Part shown: positions 12,118 to 32,796 of the stretch, one piece after another | Layout: each line of letters begins with the position of its first letter | How positions within the stretch are numbered: the first letter of the stretch is position 1 | From: Bacteroidota bacterium | Lineage (GTDB): Bacteria > Bacteroidota > Bacteroidia > Palsa-948 | Length of the DNA: 32,796 nucleotides | Assembly: GCA_004297845.1 (NCBI GenBank) | Contig: SCSP01000007.1 | Span: 1-32,796, forward strand | Direction of reading: 5' to 3' | Program-made: the position numbers and the translations under genes | The notes under the pieces: generated by a model | Seen by the model: the letters and a program-made list of their open reading frames with translations, nothing else | Database searches by the model: none | Told to the model about the DNA's origin: nothing

Positions 12118-13047
12118 TTATCGTACAACATTAAACTTGCCGGTGCGAAGAGACGCACCGCTTTTATCAACCACGCAATAAGAGTATAACCCCGATGATA
12201 AAACTGAAGTGTTTATCCTGCCCGATTTCATCTTCATGCCATTCGTTGTGAGTGAAAGAGGAGTGGTGGAGATGATTCTTCCGGTTGCATCATAGGCGGT
12301 TACTGAATATGCATCGGTAAGTTCATCCACAGAGATATTTATGAATTCTTTTGCCGGATTCGGGAACAACGTAACCCCCTCCGCACTCAGGTTTTCATTA
12401 ATGGTATTCAACCCGGAGAATGAAATATCATCCACCCAGAGAGTACTGCCTGCTTTTCCGCAATTAAGGCACATAGTATTATTTACGTTAAATAATTTTG
12501 TAGAAGAAAATGTAATCGCCATTGAATCCGGAAGTTCAGCAGAAAAAGCAGGGTTGTACATTATGGCAACACTTTGAAAGGCGTAGCTATTAACTGTTGC
12601 GCCTGTTTTCCAGTAGCCGAATCCTAGTGTATCATCGGTCGTGCTATTCCAAAGGGTGATAAGAAATTCTGCTGTATCATTCGCAGCCGGAGTGTATTTA
12701 TACCAGAAATCCACAGTTGCCGGACGGCTTGTGTATGGCATCCCAAACTTTGGAGCAAAACTAACAAGTTTACCAGGGGCTGCCAAGCCAATTGGATTAG
12801 GTAAGCCTGCAACAGGGCTGGTCATGGTTACAGAAAGAAGCCTCATTGCTTTTGCCCCGCCATGAACATTGGCAGGGGCAGTCTCTTCAAATGCAGATTG
12901 AGGGTTCCCTATAATCATCAACTCATTTTCGCTGATCCAGCCGGTAGGTTCTGTGCCTGTCCAACTTTCAAAATCCCACATGGGAGTTTGTGCAAATACA
13001 CAAAAAGAAGCACTTGAAATAACGGCAGAGAGTAAAAGTTTTTTCAT
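12118..13047 (-). CDS. T9SS type A sorting domain protein (PCMD-like), tandem copy B
   Basis: 309 aa; signal peptide, FPNPAKEFINISV sorting domain; close paralogue of 13044-13973. Confidence 0.85.
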   Translation of the reverse strand: MKKLLLSAVISSASFCVFAQTPMWDFESWTGTEPTGWISENELMIIGNPQSAFEETAPANVHGGAKAMRLLSVTMTSPVAGLPNPIGLAAPGKLVSFAPKFGMPYTSRPATVDFWYKYTPAANDTAEFLITLWNSTTDDTLGFGYWKTGATVNSYAFQSVAIMYNPAFSAELPDSMAITFSSTKLFNVNNTMCLNCGKAGSTLWVDDISFSGLNTINENLSAEGVTLFPNPAKEFINISVDELTDAYSVTAYDATGRIISTTPLSLTTNGMKMKSGRINTSVLSSGLYSYCVVDKSGASLRTGKFNVVR

Positions 13048-13973
13048 CGTACAACATTAAACTTGCCGGTGCGAAGAGGCGCACCGCTTTTATCAACTAC
13101 GGAATAAGAATATAATCCCGATGGTAAAGTTGAAGTGTTTATCATGCCCGATTTCCTGTTCATGCCATGCGTTGTGAGTGAAAGAGGAGTGGTGGAAACG
13201 CTCCTTCCGGTTACATCATACGCGGTTACAGAATAAGCTTCATCCAGCGCATCTACAGCGATGTTGACAAACTCTTTTGCCGGATTCGGGAATAACGTAA
13301 CTCCCTCAGCGCTCAGGTTTTCGTTAATGCCATTCCAACCGGAGAATGAAATATCATCTACCCAAAGCGTGCTGCCTGCTTTTCCGCAATTCGTGCAAAA
13401 AGTATAATTAGCGTTGAATAACCTTGATGAAGAAAAAGTAAGAGCCATTGAATCCGGAAGTTCAGCAGAAAAAGCAGGATCGTATATTATTGGGACACCT
13501 TGCGCAGTATAGGCGCTGACTGCCGTTCCTGTGTTCCAGTAAGCAGAGCCCAATGTATCACCAGTTGTGCTGTTCCAAAGGAAGATTAAAAATTCAGCAG
13601 TATCGCCTGCAGCAGGAGTGTATTTATACCAGAAATTCACCAATGCAGGACGACTTGTATATTGCATGCCGAATTTTGGAGCAAAGCTAACAAGTTTACC
13701 AGGGGCTGCCAAGCCAATTGGGTTAGGTAAGCCTACAACGGGACTGGTCATGGTTACAGAAAGAAGCCTCATTGCTTTTGCGCCACCATGAACATTGGCA
13801 GGGGCAGTCTCTTCAAATACAGATTGAGGGTTCCCTATAATCATCAACTCATTTTCGCTGATCCAGCCGGCAGGTTCTGTGCCTGTCCAACTTTCAAAAT
13901 CCCATGTGGGGGTTTGTGCAAATACACAAAAAGAAGCACTTGAAATAATGGCGGAGAGTAAAAGTTTTTTCAT
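13044..13973 (-). CDS. T9SS type A sorting domain protein (PCMD-like), tandem copy A
   Basis: 309 aa; FPNPAKEFVNIAV; its TGA overlaps the next ATG (ATGA). Confidence 0.85.
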   Translation of the reverse strand: MKKLLLSAIISSASFCVFAQTPTWDFESWTGTEPAGWISENELMIIGNPQSVFEETAPANVHGGAKAMRLLSVTMTSPVVGLPNPIGLAAPGKLVSFAPKFGMQYTSRPALVNFWYKYTPAAGDTAEFLIFLWNSTTGDTLGSAYWNTGTAVSAYTAQGVPIIYDPAFSAELPDSMALTFSSSRLFNANYTFCTNCGKAGSTLWVDDISFSGWNGINENLSAEGVTLFPNPAKEFVNIAVDALDEAYSVTAYDVTGRSVSTTPLSLTTHGMNRKSGMINTSTLPSGLYSYSVVDKSGAPLRTGKFNVVR

Positions 13974-14117: not shown

Positions 14118-14834
14118 ATGCGAAAGAATCTTATTATTATTATTATCCTTGTTTTTGTGGCGGGTATTGCTGTTGTCTTCTATTTGTATAAGAATGGAGG
14201 TATACTTGGCGGTAAGGATATTTCGGAAGGTGTTATTGAATATGACATCACCTACCCAAAACTTGATCCGAACAGCATGATGGTTTCCGGAATGCCCAGT
14301 AAAGCATATTTGCGTTTTAAAGGCAATAATATGTCAAACGACATGTCAGGCATGATGGGACTTATCAGCATCACTTATATATCCAATCATCAGAGCCGGG
14401 TTGTGGAACAAAGGCTGACACTCATCAATAAAAAATATGCTTCAGAAATATCTGCCGATGATCTGAAAAGACTGAATGATTCTTATCTAAGTTCAGTGGA
14501 AGATGGGGGCGGTTCTGCAGAAATCGCAGGATATAAGTGCAAAGAAGCCATTGTTAAATTAATGGATGGAGAACAGGTAAAAATATATTACACCAATGAT
14601 ATTGGCATTGAAAACCCAAACTGGTCTAATCCGTACAGCAAAATTGACGGAGTGCTGATGGAATTTCAGATGGAACGTTACGGGGTGGTCATGCATCTGC
14701 GGGCAAAATCTGTTCTTGCCCAAAAGGTAGAGGATGAGGCTTTTCAAATTCCGGCCGATTCTACCGAGTACAAAAAAATTATTTTCTCTGAATTGGAGAA
14801 AATACTTGAGGAGTTGAATCCCGGCTCCAATTGA
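14118..14834 (+). CDS. Membrane-anchored hypothetical protein, paralogue 1
   Basis: N-terminal TM, then SEGVIEYDITYPKLDPNSM...YYTNDIGIENPNWSNPYSKIDGVLMEFQ. Confidence 0.75.
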   Translation: MRKNLIIIIILVFVAGIAVVFYLYKNGGILGGKDISEGVIEYDITYPKLDPNSMMVSGMPSKAYLRFKGNNMSNDMSGMMGLISITYISNHQSRVVEQRLTLINKKYASEISADDLKRLNDSYLSSVEDGGGSAEIAGYKCKEAIVKLMDGEQVKIYYTNDIGIENPNWSNPYSKIDGVLMEFQMERYGVVMHLRAKSVLAQKVEDEAFQIPADSTEYKKIIFSELEKILEELNPGSN

Positions 14835-14882
14835 GATAAAATATTTCCTCTTCAAGCGATTGGGTGTAATTAAATTATCGCT

Positions 14883-14890
14883 TATATTTG
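14883..14890 (+). promoter_or_regulatory. -7 element TATATTTG
   Basis: TAnnTTTG upstream of ORF 14919, same context CTTATATTTG.CCC as paralogue 1. Confidence 0.6.
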
Positions 14891-14918
14891 TCCCTTATTA
14901 AGCGGGTACCTTTTTATT

Positions 14919-15623
14919 ATGCGTAAAACAATAATTTTCATTTTTGCTCTTGTTTTAATTGGAGCAGGTATTTTCTTTTATTTGTACAGAGGAGGAGAGT
15001 TGTTTGAGAAAATGCTTGTGTGGAAGAATGTCACGGAAGGGGTCATTGAGTATGAGGTCACATATCCCAAACTAGATCCCAATAGCATGATAGCTGCGGC
15101 CCTGCCGGATAAGGCATACATGCGTTTCAAAAATAATAACATGATTACCGAAATGTCAGCTATGATGTTCAACATTTCATACATCTCAAACCAATCAAAT
15201 AAGTCGGTTGCGCAAACCTTTACCCTCTTCAGTAAAAAAAATGTTTCCGATATTTCAGCGGCAGACATGAAAAAGCTGAATGGATCCTACCTGAGCAGTA
15301 TTGAGGAGGGAACACATACCCGGCAAATTGCCGGATTCACATGCAAAGAAGTAATAGCTAAGTTGCAAACCGGTGAATCCATTCGTGTATATTACACGAA
15401 TGATATCGGAATCAATAACCCCAATTGGTCAAATCCCTATACTAAAATAGATGGGGTGCTGATGGATTTCCAGTTAGAAAGCTACGGGCTTTCCATGCAC
15501 CTGAAGGCAAAAACTCTTCTTCCGCAAAAGATTGAAGACAGTGCATTTGATATTCCGGCCGATCAACAAAAAATTCCATTCGCTGAATTAGAGGCAATGC
15601 TTCGAGCTGCAGTATCTAATTGA
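14919..15623 (+). CDS. Membrane-anchored hypothetical protein, paralogue 2
   Basis: Shares TEGVIEYEVTYPKLDPNSM and IRVYYTNDIGINNPNWSNPYTKIDGVLMDFQ with 14118-14834. Confidence 0.75.
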   Translation: MRKTIIFIFALVLIGAGIFFYLYRGGELFEKMLVWKNVTEGVIEYEVTYPKLDPNSMIAAALPDKAYMRFKNNNMITEMSAMMFNISYISNQSNKSVAQTFTLFSKKNVSDISAADMKKLNGSYLSSIEEGTHTRQIAGFTCKEVIAKLQTGESIRVYYTNDIGINNPNWSNPYTKIDGVLMDFQLESYGLSMHLKAKTLLPQKIEDSAFDIPADQQKIPFAELEAMLRAAVSN

Positions 15624-24812: not shown

Positions 24813-25379
24813 ATGAAGGTACTTGTTTTAGATAATTATGATTCATTCACGTACAACCTTGTTCAATACATGGAAAGGGCAGGTAATGTTGAGATAGACG
24901 TGTACAGAAATGATAAGATAATGATGGAGGACATTAACGGCTATGATAAGATTCTTTTATCGCCCGGCCCGGGGATACCTAAAGAAGCAGGAATCCTGAT
25001 GGACGTGATCCGGGAGTACGCTCCGAAAAAAAGCCTTTTTGGAGTTTGCCTTGGGCAACAGGCGATAGCTGAAGTATTCGGGGGAAGGCTCATCAATCTT
25101 GATGCTGCGTATCATGGCGTAGCAACCGAAATGGAAGTGCTTAGAGAGGATATTTTATTTAAAGGAGTGCCAAAAAAATTTAAAGCGGGACGTTACCATT
25201 CCTGGGTGGTGGATGATAAAAAATTTCCTGACGAATTAGAGATCACCGTTAAAGATGAGAATGGTTACATCATGGGACTGCGGCACAAACAATTAGATGT
25301 GCGCGCTGTGCAGTTTCATCCTGAAAGCATTTTAACCGAGTATGGAATGCTGATTATAAAGAACTGGGTAGAGGGATGA
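24813..25379 (+). CDS. trpG/pabA: Glutamine amidotransferase, anthranilate/aminodeoxychorismate synthase component II
   Basis: LDNYDSFTYNLVQY, LSPGPGIPKEAG, FGVCLGQQAIAEVFGG, VQFHPESILTEYG. Confidence 0.95.
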   Translation: MKVLVLDNYDSFTYNLVQYMERAGNVEIDVYRNDKIMMEDINGYDKILLSPGPGIPKEAGILMDVIREYAPKKSLFGVCLGQQAIAEVFGGRLINLDAAYHGVATEMEVLREDILFKGVPKKFKAGRYHSWVVDDKKFPDELEITVKDENGYIMGLRHKQLDVRAVQFHPESILTEYGMLIIKNWVEG

Positions 25380-25983: not shown

Positions 25984-28495
25984 TTATGTCAATCTTTCTT
26001 CCAGCAAATCCTTCCAAATAACAAACCCTTTCCTTTCATCGGAATAATCATGAACAATTCTGCTGAACCCATCGGTTTGGCTTCCAAGATATTCCTGCCT
26101 TCCGGTTGTCCTGATCTTCCCGATGTATGAATCTATCTCTTTCAGTTTGTTTTTGAGGGCTGGAATGTTTTTATGAACGTGCCATACATAAGTTGCTTCT
26201 TCGGTGTCGAGTGTTTCCCAAATAACATGGTATTGGTGCTTACCGCTAAGTAGGAATACGAATGAAAATGGATATAGAACAAACCGCAGCTTCAAAATAT
26301 TGCTTTCATGCTTTTGGGATAGATAAACCAGTTGACGGTGATGTTTTACGTTCTTGTTTTTCAGAATGTCGTCTAAAAGTTCTTTCTCTGAGCCGTACAG
26401 AGGCGACTTTTGTTCATCCTGAACTTGATTTAGATCGAGCAAATTATCTTCACCCTTTGGAATCTTTCCAAAAATTCCTTTTGAAACAAATTGAAATTTT
26501 ACGCTGTCTATAATCTCTCTGTTTATTTTGCTCAAATCATGGGAAGATGCTGTATGAATTACCGGAACTCCATTATGAAACTTCGCCAGTACATCAATTT
26601 TTACCTTTTTTGTTTTCAGAATTTTTGAAAAGTATGGCTTCAATACATCAAATTCAGGGCGCATCTCGTTATTCTCCACCTCAAATTCCTGCTCGGTATT
26701 TATCTGTGGGATCAAGTGTTTGAATGCAACCGCCCCAAATCGAAACTCAAGCTGCTCAATCGGAATATTTATTCGCTGCTCATAAACAAAAGTGCTTGTA
26801 TCAGAATCACTCTTGCTATCAGGTTGGCTGAATAGGGTACCGCTTAAATAGAATTTCTTGTAGTAGGCGTTTCTTTTTTGAAATAATTTTTCGAGGTATT
26901 CAATTTTGTGATCCCTATAATCATAAATAACAGGCGTTATTTCTGAACGCTGAGCCCTGCCTATGTATTGAATCAGCTTACCTTCAAACGAGAAAGGATA
27001 AACCAAAAACAGGCATTCTATTTTTTGCAAATCGCTTCCTTCCCCAAAATATTGTCCGGTAGTGATAAGCACCTGAAAATTTCCTTCTTTCAATATTTCC
27101 CATTTCGTTTTCTTGTTGGAATAAGAATCATCTCCGCTTAATGTTATGGCTTCGTACTTCTGCTTTAGGTATTGGTGCAGCGTATCAATATGCTCTTTTC
27201 TTTCTGTTACGATTACTGCTTTCTTTCCTTTGTTCAGTTCCGCCACTACATCATCCAAAATAAGTTTGTTCCGACCTGAATCATGCACCAATACTTTCGA
27301 TACTGTTTCAAACTTATCAGTTTTGGCATTGAACGGAATAGACAGTTCGGTATTTCGTACAATAATTTTTGCTCCGGGAGTGTCTGAAATATCCTGTGGT
27401 TCGACTTCGGAGATAATATCCCCTAAATGAATAAAAATTAGTTTGCCATCGTTGTATTTTCGGAAGGGCGTGGCTGTTAATCCATACAAATAAAAAGTGT
27501 GGAATTTTGAAATTGTATTTCTGAAAGTATCTGCCGGAACATGATGACATTCATCAACAATAATGGTTCCGAAAGATTTTAAGAGTTTCTCAGCTTGCTC
27601 TGATTCAATAGCCTTTTCTAAACTTTGGATCATTGCAATCGTTATGTGTTTCCCAAGAGTATTTTTTCCCTGACCAATTTTCCCGATTTCTCTTTTGGGA
27701 ATGCCAAGAAAAGATTCTATCCTTTCTGCCCATTGGTCGGCAAGTTGTTTGCGATGCACAATAATTAATGCGGGTTGCTGCTTGTTGGCAATTACAGAAA
27801 GACCGATAATTGTTTTGCCTGACCCCGGAGGTGCTACAATAACTCCAAAATCTTTTTTCTTCGTGCCTTCTAATACAGGCTTCTGATGTTCTCTTAATTC
27901 GATACTTGGCGAAAAAAGAACCGCATTTGCTTTCTGCCTTTCATCATTAAAATCATATTCGATGGTATGCTCCCTGAAAAAGCGGATTAGCTTTCCAATG
28001 AAACCTCTTGGAATAATTATATCATCTTCTGTTTCCTCTATCATTTTAAAGTACCGCTCCGTCCCCCATACATTTTTTCCCATTTTCTTTTTTATAAAAT
28101 ATTCGGTGTTGGCAAAATTGAGTTCGTCTTTCAGGAAATTAATCAACGGGGTAGTTAAGCTGGAACGGTTTATATAAACTGCATTTTTTAGGCGTACATT
28201 GATTTTACCAGCAACAACGGGTTTTTCTTGTGGAGATGAGGGGGAATGGACTAATTCCTGATATAAGCTATCGAGTCTTTCAAGCGATACTTTTTTGATG
28301 TTCTTCAGAAATTCCCACTGGTCGCTAAAGGTTCTAAAGTTTCAGGGTCAATGAAACAACTATTTCCTGTCTGCATAGCGGTTTTATGGAAAGGCAATGC
28401 GATTAAATTTCCTAATAAACATCTTCTCTACCCCTGAAAATAGATTTGAAAAGAGTTATTTCATTAGCTGTAATCAAAGCGCACACAATTTCTCT
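25984..28495 (-). pseudogene. TOTE-type archaeo-eukaryotic primase-helicase, primase domain deleted; SF2 helicase ORF (25984-28341) still open
   Basis: Helicase: VIVAPPGSGKTIIGLSV, IIVDECHHVPADTF, YGLTATPFRK, TTGQYFGEGSDL, YIGRAQRS. Three upstream fragments lie in different frames: LFKSIFRGREDVY* (28415-28495), GNLIALPFHKTAMQTGNSCFIDPETLEP (28329-28412), NFRTFSDQWEFLKNIKKVSLERL (to 28341). Confidence 0.8.
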
Positions 28496-28502
28496 TTAAC
28501 TA

Positions 28503-28940
28503 TCAAAGTGGTTGGAAATTTGGATTAGATAGTATCATTTCTTGACATTCTTTCAGAGAAATTCCTTCAGCAACTAAGTGCCACTGACCTGTATGACGGA
28601 AGTATGAAAAATCAAAGCAATCTTTTCCAACGTATTTTAACCGTACCACTTTTGCTTCAAATTCATCGGCTATTCTATTAACATGTTCCGACTTATATTT
28701 TTCACATAAGTAAAAATTATTTTGATTCCACTTTGAATAAACATCAATTACATAGTTGCATTCCTTATCAGGGTTCTTTTTCACACACTTCTTTTTAAAA
28801 GCCTGAACAAGTGGTTGAAAATATTCCTGAATACTTTCTTTTTCTGATTCTGAAGGTTTTGCATTAGGTCGCTTTTCTGGTGAAAACACCCAGCGTTTTT
28901 TATTTTTATTCATATTGGTTTTTGTTTCTGTAATCACCAA
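28503..28940 (-). CDS. DUF3024-like protein
   Basis: KKRWVFSPEKRPNAKPSESEK...NYVIDVYSKWNQNNFYLCEKY...FEAKVVRLKYVGKDCFDFSYFRHTGQWHLV; family assignment from memory. Confidence 0.6.
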   Translation of the reverse strand: MVITETKTNMNKNKKRWVFSPEKRPNAKPSESEKESIQEYFQPLVQAFKKKCVKKNPDKECNYVIDVYSKWNQNNFYLCEKYKSEHVNRIADEFEAKVVRLKYVGKDCFDFSYFRHTGQWHLVAEGISLKECQEMILSNPNFQPL

Positions 28941-29456
28941 TTATTCAAACTTAGCATCCTCGAAAAATTCATAATAGTAGTCCGACAATTCATCGTGAAA
29001 GCCCCATCCAATACCATCGGTATCGTCCATTATTTTTTTACAACGCTGTTTAAACTGTTCTTTCATCCCATTTGCCTTAATATACTCACCTGCATCGTGA
29101 AACATGCCTGCCACGCTATTGTAAAAAGGTTCGTCAATATCACCAAAATCATTTGTGTAGTTTACACCACATTCCACATAAAATAACATTACATCCGCAA
29201 TATCATTTTCAAGTGGAGATAATTTTTTGAAGCCGGTAATGGCTTTGCGGGCTTCCCTTAATTTTAAATCGCAATTTATATTAGTACTGATACATTTACT
29301 GATTATTTTCTTTGCCTCCTCTTTAGCTTTATCGCTATTGGGATTGATAGAAAATTCATAGTATGTTTTTACATCTTTATATTTTTTGTGCAATTCTATA
29401 ATCTGCTCCATAAGCTGCTCTTTGCTGAATTGCTTTAAGTATTTTTTGATGGACAT
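28941..29456 (-). CDS. DUF6155-like protein
   Basis: IKKYLKQFSKEQLMEQIIELHKKYKDVKTYYEFSINPNSDKAKEEAKKIIS...ENDIADVMLFYVE; family assignment from memory. Confidence 0.65.
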   Translation of the reverse strand: MSIKKYLKQFSKEQLMEQIIELHKKYKDVKTYYEFSINPNSDKAKEEAKKIISKCISTNINCDLKLREARKAITGFKKLSPLENDIADVMLFYVECGVNYTNDFGDIDEPFYNSVAGMFHDAGEYIKANGMKEQFKQRCKKIMDDTDGIGWGFHDELSDYYYEFFEDAKFE

Positions 29457-29462
29457 GATTAT

Positions 29463-29924
29463 TTAAAGATTCTGTTTTTTCAGCATTTTTTTCAGCGCAT
29501 CAAATATTTCTTCACCTTTTGTGAGAGTTTCTATTTTTTCCATCAGAGATACGTCCTTTACGGCTTGGTTAAATAGCTGCACGAAATACCGGATCAACTG
29601 CACATGAATTTTTATGGCTTGTTCACTTTTTAGGCTGCCTCCGGTCATTAATATTCCCTGCTCAGTAAAAACAAAAGGGAATTTTTCCTCTTTGAACATC
29701 GCCAGCTCCTTTAGATTCAGCTTAAACATAAATTCTTTCGGGAAACGGTCAATATTTTTTTTGACCTGTTTATGCAGGTACTCAGGAGTTACATGGTATA
29801 GTTTTGCAACATCACTGCTTAACATTACCTGCTTACCCCGGATTTTTTTCATACTACTTTCAATCATTGCTTCTAAAGCAATCAGTGAAGTATAATCGTT
29901 TTGAGTAATTGTTTCCCTTTTCAT
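29463..29924 (-). CDS. ORF6N domain-containing DNA-binding protein
   Basis: KKIRGKQVMLSSDVAKLYHVTPEYLHKQVKKNIDRFPKEFMFKL...FVFTEQGILMTGGSLKSEQAIKIHVQLIRYFV. Confidence 0.9.
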   Translation of the reverse strand: MKRETITQNDYTSLIALEAMIESSMKKIRGKQVMLSSDVAKLYHVTPEYLHKQVKKNIDRFPKEFMFKLNLKELAMFKEEKFPFVFTEQGILMTGGSLKSEQAIKIHVQLIRYFVQLFNQAVKDVSLMEKIETLTKGEEIFDALKKMLKKQNL

Positions 29925-29978: not shown

Positions 29979-32796
29979 CTATTTTACCCATAAATCGGCA
30001 AACAATTCGGCTTGTTTCAATACGGTATCAATAGCTTTTTGTTGTTTGTCCGGGGGATAACCGTATTTGGCGAGTGTGCGTTTAACGAGTACCATTAATT
30101 TTGCTCTTGCACTTTCTCTGATTGCCCAATCAATAGTGGCATTTGATTTTATTTTTTCTGCAATTTCTCTTGCTATATCTCGTAATGTATCATCTCCCAA
30201 AACATTTACTGCGCTGTCGTTTACTTCTAAGGCATTGTAAAAAGCGACTTCATCCTGTGTCAGTCCCAGGCGTTCACCTTCTTTATCAGCGTCTTTAATA
30301 TCCTTTGCGATGTTGATTAACTCCTGAATAATTTCAGCCGTTGAGAGTAAATTATTTTGATACCGTTTTATTGCTGATTCAAGCATTTCAAGAAATGCTT
30401 TGCTTTTTACAAGATTGGTTTTTGTTCGTGTTTTAATTTCATCATTCAAAATCTTTTTTAGTAATTCCAATGCGAGATTTTGGTGCTTCATTCCTTTTAC
30501 TTCTAAAAGGAATTCATCTGAAAGGATTGATATTTCAGGCTTTGCCATTCCCGCAGCTTCAAAAATATCTATTACATTATCGGAGCTTAATGCTTCATCA
30601 ACAATTTGTTTAATAGCGGTTTCAATTTCATAATTAGATTTACCAGTGCCAGTTCCTTCAAACTTCACTAATCGTGCTTTTACCGCTTGAAAGAATGCGA
30701 CTTCCGGTAAATGTGCCTGTACTTCTTCTTTAGAGATGCAAATGGAAAGGCTTTGACTTAATAAACTTACTTCACGAATGAATCTTTCCTTGCCTTCCTG
30801 CAATCCTAAAATATGTTCTTCGGCTTGCAGAATAATAGAGAGTTTTTCTTTTGCATCAACGGAAAAGAATCGTTTGTAGTTAAACTTGAAACTATTTTCG
30901 TAATACGCTTCGGGTTCTTCTACCAAAGTACCCTTGCGTGTGTTGCTGTCTTCATTGAACATCTGTTTCACCACCTCAAGTTTCTCCTTGAATACATCAA
31001 TGGCTTGCTCAATTTTTTCTGTTGGATCACCTTTACCTCCGGCATCTGAATAAAATGAAAGTGCTTTCTTTAAATCGGTGGCTATGCCAAGATAATCCAC
31101 AACCAAACCGCCTTTGATTTCTTTGAACACCCGGTTCACCCTTGCAATAGCTTGCATGAGGTTGTGTCCTCTCATGGGTTTGTCAATGTAAAGTGTTTTT
31201 AAAACGGGAGCGTCAAAACCTGTAAGCCACATATCACGAACTATTACCAGTTTTAATGGGTCGGCAGGGTCTTTCATTCTCTCGGATAAATCCTTTCGCT
31301 GTTGCTTGGTAGTTTTGAATTTTGCAAGTAACGGACCCTCATCGCTCGATGCTGTCATCACCACTTTAATAACGCCTTTTGCTAAATCGTCATTGTGCCA
31401 CTCCGGTCTTAAAGCAATAATTTCAAGGTAGAGTTCTGCTGCAATTCTTCGGCTCATTGCCACTATCATCGCCTTGCCTTCAAAAACTGTTTGACGTTTT
31501 TCAAAATGCGTAACAATATCTTTTGCTAAATTTTTTATTCTGCTCTGATTGCCTACAATCGCCTCCAGCTTTGCCCACTTTGCTTTTGCTTTTTGTTTCT
31601 CCGAAATTTCTTCGTCCTGCTCCAACTCTTTGTCAAATTCTTCAATCAATCTTTTGCCTTCTTCATCCAGATTCACCTTTGCCAAACGGCTTTCGTAATA
31701 AATTTTCACCGTTGCACCATCTGAAACAGCATCCTTTATATCGTATCTGTCAATATAATTTCCAAAAATTTGGGGTGTATTTACATCTGTTCCTTCTATC
31801 GGTGTGCCTGTGAAGCCAATGTAGGTGGCTTTTGGAAGGGCATCACGTAAGTATTTTGCAAAACCATACGCAATTCGTTTTCCCGCTTCTTTTGTTACAG
31901 GGTCTGTGGAATCTAAAAGTTTTGCTTCAAAACCATATTGAGTACGATGTGCTTCATCAGCAATTACTACAATATTTTTTCTGTCGGAAAGTTGGTCATA
32001 TTCTGATTTTTTCCCTTCGGGTGAGAATTTCTGAATGGTGGTAAATACAATGCCTCCGCTTGCAACTTTTAAAAGTTCTTTCAGGTGTTCCCTGTTTTCC
32101 GCCTGCACTGGCTCTTGTCTTAATAATTGTACTGATGCAGCGAAAGTGTCAAACAACTGATCGTCTAAATCATTGCGGTCGGTGATGACAACAATAGTAG
32201 GATTTTGCATTTCGGGAGCAGTGATGAGTTTACCGGAATAAAAAACCATGCTCAAACTTTTACCGCTTCCCTGTGTGTGCCAAACTACGCCACCTCGTTT
32301 ATTTCCATTAACCCCCGATGCTGTGATTGAAGATTGCACCGCTTTATTTACTGCATAGTATTGATGATATGCCGCTAATTTTTTCTCTGTAAAAACTTGT
32401 GTCAGCCCGGTTTTTGCATCTTCCTTTTTTGTTTTCTCAAACACAATGAAGTTCCGCACTAAATCCAAAAGAGTGGAAGGCTGCAACATCCCTTTAAGCA
32501 GTGTTTCCAACTGTGGCTTAAATTTTGAAACATCTTTTATTCCGTCTGCACTTTTCCAAGTCATGTATCTGCTGAACTCTGCCGAAACACTTCCGGCTTT
32601 ACATTCTAATCCGTCAGATATGATACAAACGGCATTGTAAGTAAATAAAGATGGAATGATTGCTTTATATGTTTGTATTTGCTCGTATGCCTTGCGAATG
32701 CTTGCGTTTTCATCGCTTGCATTTTTAAGTTCAATCACAACAAGCGGAATTCCATTTACAAATAGAATAACATCAGGTCGCTTATTCTGATTGTTT
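29979..32796 (-). CDS. hsdR: Type I restriction endonuclease subunit R (N-terminus outside window)
   Basis: PDVILFVNGIPLVVIELKN nuclease motif (open to window end), GGVVWHTQGSGKSLSMVF, VIADEAHRTQYGF, YIGFTGTPIEGTDVNT, DMWLTGFDAPVLKTLYIDKPMRGHNLMQAIARVNR. Confidence 0.95.
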   Translation of the reverse strand, partial: NNQNKRPDVILFVNGIPLVVIELKNASDENASIRKAYEQIQTYKAIIPSLFTYNAVCIISDGLECKAGSVSAEFSRYMTWKSADGIKDVSKFKPQLETLLKGMLQPSTLLDLVRNFIVFEKTKKEDAKTGLTQVFTEKKLAAYHQYYAVNKAVQSSITASGVNGNKRGGVVWHTQGSGKSLSMVFYSGKLITAPEMQNPTIVVITDRNDLDDQLFDTFAASVQLLRQEPVQAENREHLKELLKVASGGIVFTTIQKFSPEGKKSEYDQLSDRKNIVVIADEAHRTQYGFEAKLLDSTDPVTKEAGKRIAYGFAKYLRDALPKATYIGFTGTPIEGTDVNTPQIFGNYIDRYDIKDAVSDGATVKIYYESRLAKVNLDEEGKRLIEEFDKELEQDEEISEKQKAKAKWAKLEAIVGNQSRIKNLAKDIVTHFEKRQTVFEGKAMIVAMSRRIAAELYLEIIALRPEWHNDDLAKGVIKVVMTASSDEGPLLAKFKTTKQQRKDLSERMKDPADPLKLVIVRDMWLTGFDAPVLKTLYIDKPMRGHNLMQAIARVNRVFKEIKGGLVVDYLGIATDLKKALSFYSDAGGKGDPTEKIEQAIDVFKEKLEVVKQMFNEDSNTRKGTLVEEPEAYYENSFKFNYKRFFSVDAKEKLSIILQAEEHILGLQEGKERFIREVSLLSQSLSICISKEEVQAHLPEVAFFQAVKARLVKFEGTGTGKSNYEIETAIKQIVDEALSSDNVIDIFEAAGMAKPEISILSDEFLLEVKGMKHQNLALELLKKILNDEIKTRTKTNLVKSKAFLEMLESAIKRYQNNLLSTAEIIQELINIAKDIKDADKEGERLGLTQDEVAFYNALEVNDSAVNVLGDDTLRDIAREIAEKIKSNATIDWAIRESARAKLMVLVKRTLAKYGYPPDKQQKAIDTVLKQAELFADLWVK

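Follow-up and report, generated by a model that had tools for sequence, protein, structure and literature searches.

A disrupted AEP primase-SF2 helicase gene without its primase core in a probable defence-type island of a Bacteroidota bacterium

Introduction

What is left of a primase-helicase gene whose coding sequence is spread over three reading frames, and could any part of it still be in use? The question is raised by a stretch of 32,796 nucleotides (hereafter the window), which is contig C151 of a 412-contig, 98.5% complete draft genome of a Bacteroidota bacterium. A preliminary description, made from the sequence alone, had proposed a decayed TOTE-type primase-helicase from which the primase core was deleted, upstream of a helicase part that remains open. 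Here, this locus is compared with its relatives and with known systems, and the features concerned are listed in Table 1.

Table 1. Features of the window and lesions in other disrupted copies of the AEP-helicase family
Feature	Sequence	Position	Strand	Evidence or remark
Two tandem paralogues	window	12118-13973	-	309 aa each
Two similar tandem genes	window	14118-15623	+	238 and 234 aa
trpG	window	24813-25379
Disrupted AEP-SF2 helicase gene	window	25984-28495 (region)	-	DUF3024 gene directly upstream, same strand
C-terminal domain	window	25984-26860	-	about 290 residues
Longest ORF with a standard start	window	25984-28146	-	TTG at 28146, 720 aa; first ATG near 28082
Open frame	window	25984-28338	-	785 codons: AEP tail, helicase N-terminal region, SF2 core, C-terminal domain
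1-nt loss, frame shift ahead of FSDQWEFL	window	28327-28328	-	DNA alignment with L013 and L002
Second AEP remnant, GNLIALPFHKTAMQTGNSCFIDPETLEP	window	28329-28412	-	frame unlike the first; PF22548, and tblastn to L002 residues 188-233
Deletion junction	window	28414-28415	-	L002 4325 resumes after 3834; 490 nt gone relative to L002
N-terminal AEP remnant, ending ITANEITLFKSIFRGREDVY	window	28415-28477	-	followed by TAG (28414-28412); nucleotide alignment to L002 and L013
DUF3024 protein gene (island neighbour)	window	28503-28940	-	Pfam E=3e-13; gene end at 28503
DUF6155 protein gene (island neighbour)	window	28941-29456	-	Pfam E=2e-26
ORF6N protein gene	window	29463-29924	-	PADLOC candidate defence family PDC-S05
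Type I restriction enzyme hsdR	window	29979-32796	-	open to contig edge
Nearest relative	L013			frameshift at residue 35
Disrupted copy	L069			frameshifts near residues 115 and 820
Disrupted copy, type strain Pedobacter alluvionis DSM 19624	L008	5182-8187		GGA to TGA stop, residue 204
Disrupted copy	L021	674-3645		poly-T frameshift, residue 223
Disrupted copy	L055	1501-4470		stop, residue 240
Disrupted copy	L020			stop, residue 414
Putatively disrupted copy	L071			unrelated sequence from residue 635
Disrupted copy	L061			stop, residue 689
Disrupted copy	L056			frameshift near residue 950; 97% identical to intact L053

Three remnant frames and two lesions

The three minus-strand frames of the preliminary description are all present, namely GREDVY followed by a stop, GNLIALP..LEP at 28412-28329, and FSDQWEFLKN, which runs into the helicase. 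Taken in this order, the three align with an intact 997-aa protein encoded at locus L002, in which an AEP primase precedes an XPB-like SF2 helicase that is itself followed by a C-terminal domain, as well as with the copy at L013; the alignments to both and a match to the PF22548 profile bear out the earlier assignment to the AEP primase-helicases. The first remnant, for which a GTG near 28484 is a possible start, does contain LFKSIFRGREDVY, although at about 28453-28415 and not over the 28495-28415 given previously. The 60 nt 5' of the junction, on the GREDVY side, share 38 identities with both L002 and L013, as compared with 34 and 35 for the best of 2000 shuffled sequences. The second remnant was detected by both searches that had been suggested, with the TOTE AEP profile and by tblastn. 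These 28 aa alone pass the Pfam cut-off for PF22548 (AEP-TOTE; E=3e-6, profile positions 182-208) and, once joined to the next frame, match positions 181-229 of 230 (E=1.3e-12), which is all of the profile that the window copy matches.

Two lesions set the frames apart. A primase-core deletion is supported by comparison with intact relatives, but at 490 nt (489 nt relative to L013, itself short by 1 nt), or about 163 codons, it is smaller than the roughly 200 residues first estimated. DNA homology restarts exactly at the junction, with 87% identity to L013 and 76% to L002, and any repeat at the deletion ends is limited to one or two bases. The second lesion is the loss of about 1 nt that had been predicted near 28327, and which the DNA alignments place at 28327/28328.

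Loss of the primase core

The deleted stretch corresponds to about residues 25-187 of L002. Motifs I (hhhDhD/E), II (sxH) and III (hD/E) of the Prim-Pol superfamily (PMC10345425) were located in L002 by alignment with 7nqf, at residues ~99-102 (ADFD), 131-136 (SGKGGH) and 173-175 (FDRLF), respectively. Because all three lie within the gap and none is left in the window copy, the primase cannot work, and primase activity of this gene is, to judge by its sequence, gone. A search of all contigs detected neither another copy of the gene nor a primase core outside this locus.

Relation to known systems

The window gene shares its domain order with the AEP (Prim-Pol)-SF2 fusions (PF22548), intact homologues of which, in this same order, comprise L002 and dozens more. 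It keeps the end of the AEP domain (GNLIALP..GNSCFxxPETLEP..DQW), but differs from these fusions by the absence of 163 codons, including all AEP catalytic motifs, and by the absence of a single ORF, being spread over three frames with a TAG after DVY. The nearest solved relative of the intact AEP is CAPP, a CRISPR-associated Prim-Pol (PDB 7nqf/7p9j, PMC8211822; E=2e-11), with which it has in common an N-terminal LFxGREDVF and a C-terminal GLGNLIxxPL. However, this match spans the AEP only, the aligned chain is without a fused SF2 helicase, and no CRISPR genes were found among the window ORFs examined.

The term TOTE, for TPR, OB, TBP, Effector (PMC12458937), deserves comment, since the AEP Pfam family bears the name of these conflict systems, whereas the window gene is solitary. 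TBP (PF00352) has zero matches in the whole genome, control genomes being positive, and no TPR or OB gene is present on the contig, where the neighbours encode DUF3024, DUF6155, ORF6N and HsdR, and which stops inside hsdR. For these reasons, the earlier label of "TOTE-type" holds as the name of a Pfam domain but not as that of a system, and the proper name is disrupted AEP-SF2 helicase gene.

On the helicase side, the best PDB match is XPBII of the XPB/Rad25 helicases (E=3e-28), of which the SF2 core alone aligns. Free-standing SF2 helicases of phages and plasmids (phrog_16; RcZahn gp58; an Alicyclobacillus dauci plasmid) are homologous over residues 1-432, at ~26-32% identity and without the C-terminal domain of 290 residues; those of the Rhodobacter phage RcZahn and of the A. 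dauci plasmid adjoin a separate primase gene. A search of a viral collection returned one distant helicase and nothing else.

The remaining helicase frame and the selection acting on it

As first described, the helicase part is open, and after FSDQWEFLKN it continues to its end without further lesion. All helicase motifs are kept (APPGSGKT, DECHH, TATP and QYIGRAQRS, i.e., Walker A, DECH, TATP and QxxGRxxR), the SF2 core matches PF04851 (E=1e-31) and PF00271 (E=8e-10), and long invariant stretches are common to 14 aligned relatives. Identity over this part is 77-79% to L002 and 91% to L013. The first ~64 of the 785 codons comprise no standard start codon, and the TTG of the longest ORF lies immediately before the helicase N-terminal region. 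The Bacteroidota-type -7 motif (TAnnTTTG) is absent from the minus strand between 27951 and 28560, a weak result given that only 0.33 occurrences are expected by chance.

The conserved C-terminal domain has no Pfam match. Foldseek with a model of this domain (pLDDT 72.5) retrieved nothing from the PDB at E<=0.001, and a likeness of the model to TnsE, in its DNA-binding C-terminal domain (E 0.68, prob 0.72), may serve as a weak lead only; a model of the whole helicase (pLDDT 61) was set aside.

Comparison of the helicase parts of the window and L013 gives a dS of 0.60, a dN of 0.053 and a dN/dS of 0.09. When changes are assigned to branches by means of L002, used as the outgroup, the window branch receives 76 synonymous and 38 non-synonymous ones, versus 82 and 37 for that of L013, and these ratios do not differ (Fisher p=0.78). 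In a simple two-rate model, neutral evolution accounts for at most ~10% of the window branch. Relaxed selection on the window helicase part was thus undetected by either approach, so that either the lesions would be young or the helicase would still be selected, both of which fit these substitution counts equally.

Recurrent disruption in the family

A census of the AEP-helicase family, duplicates removed, gathered 61 distinct copies, 10 of which, including that of the window, are disrupted by a stop, frameshift, deletion or interruption (Table 1). Sequencing errors may be behind some of these disruptions. Given that 10 of the 61 collected copies are affected, decay is recurrent in this family. 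A lesion falls in the first 275 residues in 6 of the 10, a bias that is weak and was assessed post hoc (p=0.03). It was also noticed post hoc that L008, L021 and L055 are all broken within residues 204-240, at the AEP/helicase border. No member with an intact frame, without the AEP and with the C-terminal domain is present among the 61 copies; L070, which starts at residue 186, was considered as a primase-less copy and rejected, as it lies at a contig edge. Two copies, L024 and L025, represent a shorter form, with an open frame of ~728 aa that stops after the helicase core and is without the C-terminal domain.

Genomic context

None of six congeners has a match to the AEP-helicase gene, and in the five congeners read at that region, none of the island genes of the window is found beside trpG. 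The N-terminus of hsdR is absent from the window solely because the contig ends there. Elsewhere, the copies L002, L013 and L005 adjoin AbiE-type genes, and a cytosine methylase gene is also near the L002 copy. Such neighbours (hsdR, ORF6N/PDC-S05, AbiE-type and methylase genes) would correspond to the customary surroundings of defence genes.

Other features of this contig may be mentioned. trpG is solitary here and in congeners G001 and G004, while in G002, G003 and G006 it is followed by an apparent trpDCFBA (loci compared: L083-L087). The two 309-aa paralogues are highly similar, overlap by 4 nt and probably stem from a recent duplication; the 238- and 234-aa genes are probably another duplication.

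Origin and fate of the disrupted gene

Taken together, the locus is likely to be a recently inactivated, horizontally acquired AEP primase-SF2 helicase gene, located in a defence-type island that is absent from the sampled congeners. Recent decay is favoured because intact homologues exist, the two lesions are independent, the Prim-Pol motifs all fall within the gap, there is no second copy, the six congeners are without the gene, and 10 of 61 collected family members are disrupted; the absence of a -7 motif counts weakly in its favour as well. A 490-nt deletion would have brought the first ~24 codons up against the final third of the AEP domain, thereby removing all catalytic primase motifs, and a separate 1-nt deletion, before or after it, would have moved the rest of the gene into another frame. 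The helicase part may be made at low level from an internal start, and the gene is probably on its way to loss, as would be about one sixth of the copies of its family. Against decay, the 785-codon remainder is lesion-free and its N/S ratio equals that of L013, so that selection on the helicase may possibly persist.

This leads to the main alternative, which we hold to be rather unlikely: a functional helicase-only derivative that has shed its primase and is kept by selection, as a 720-aa protein from the TTG or one of ~700 aa from the ATG, with transcription by read-through from the DUF3024 gene. No relaxation of selection is detected, every helicase motif is intact, the TTG is suitably placed, directly before the helicase N-terminal region, and the early position of most census lesions points the same way, with the same post hoc reservation. 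In addition, such a product would be a complete domain, given the free-standing phage and plasmid helicases that are homologous to residues 1-432. However, the start of the open frame offers neither a standard start codon nor a promoter-like motif, the census holds no comparable AEP-free member with this C-terminal domain, and an identical dN/dS is predicted by recent decay. It is a little more doubtful still that a primase-helicase deprived of its primase survives as a selected stand-alone helicase with the 290-residue C-terminal domain, the helicase half then having a role of its own.

An assembly or consensus error masking an intact gene is improbable: the genome is a draft in 412 contigs and other census lesions also come from drafts, but two unrelated errors would be needed, including a clean deletion of 490 nt, and primase-core sequence is on no other contig. 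Least plausible is a programmed arrangement, in which frameshifting or reinitiation would yield separate proteins from the locus, as the splits of L008, L021 and L055 near the AEP/helicase border could suggest, since these three (nonsense, poly-T and nonsense, at differing residues) share no slippery site and none resembles the window's lesions, in which the absence of the primase core leaves no first product to make.

Recent decay being the preferred reading, the window documents how an AEP-helicase gene lost its primase half, in what is mostly ordinary gene decay. The census further suggests that roughly one sixth of the members of this patchy family are broken, which would be expected of defence-type genes with a rapid gain and loss. 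Should the helicase half nonetheless be kept by selection, the roles of the two halves would be separable.
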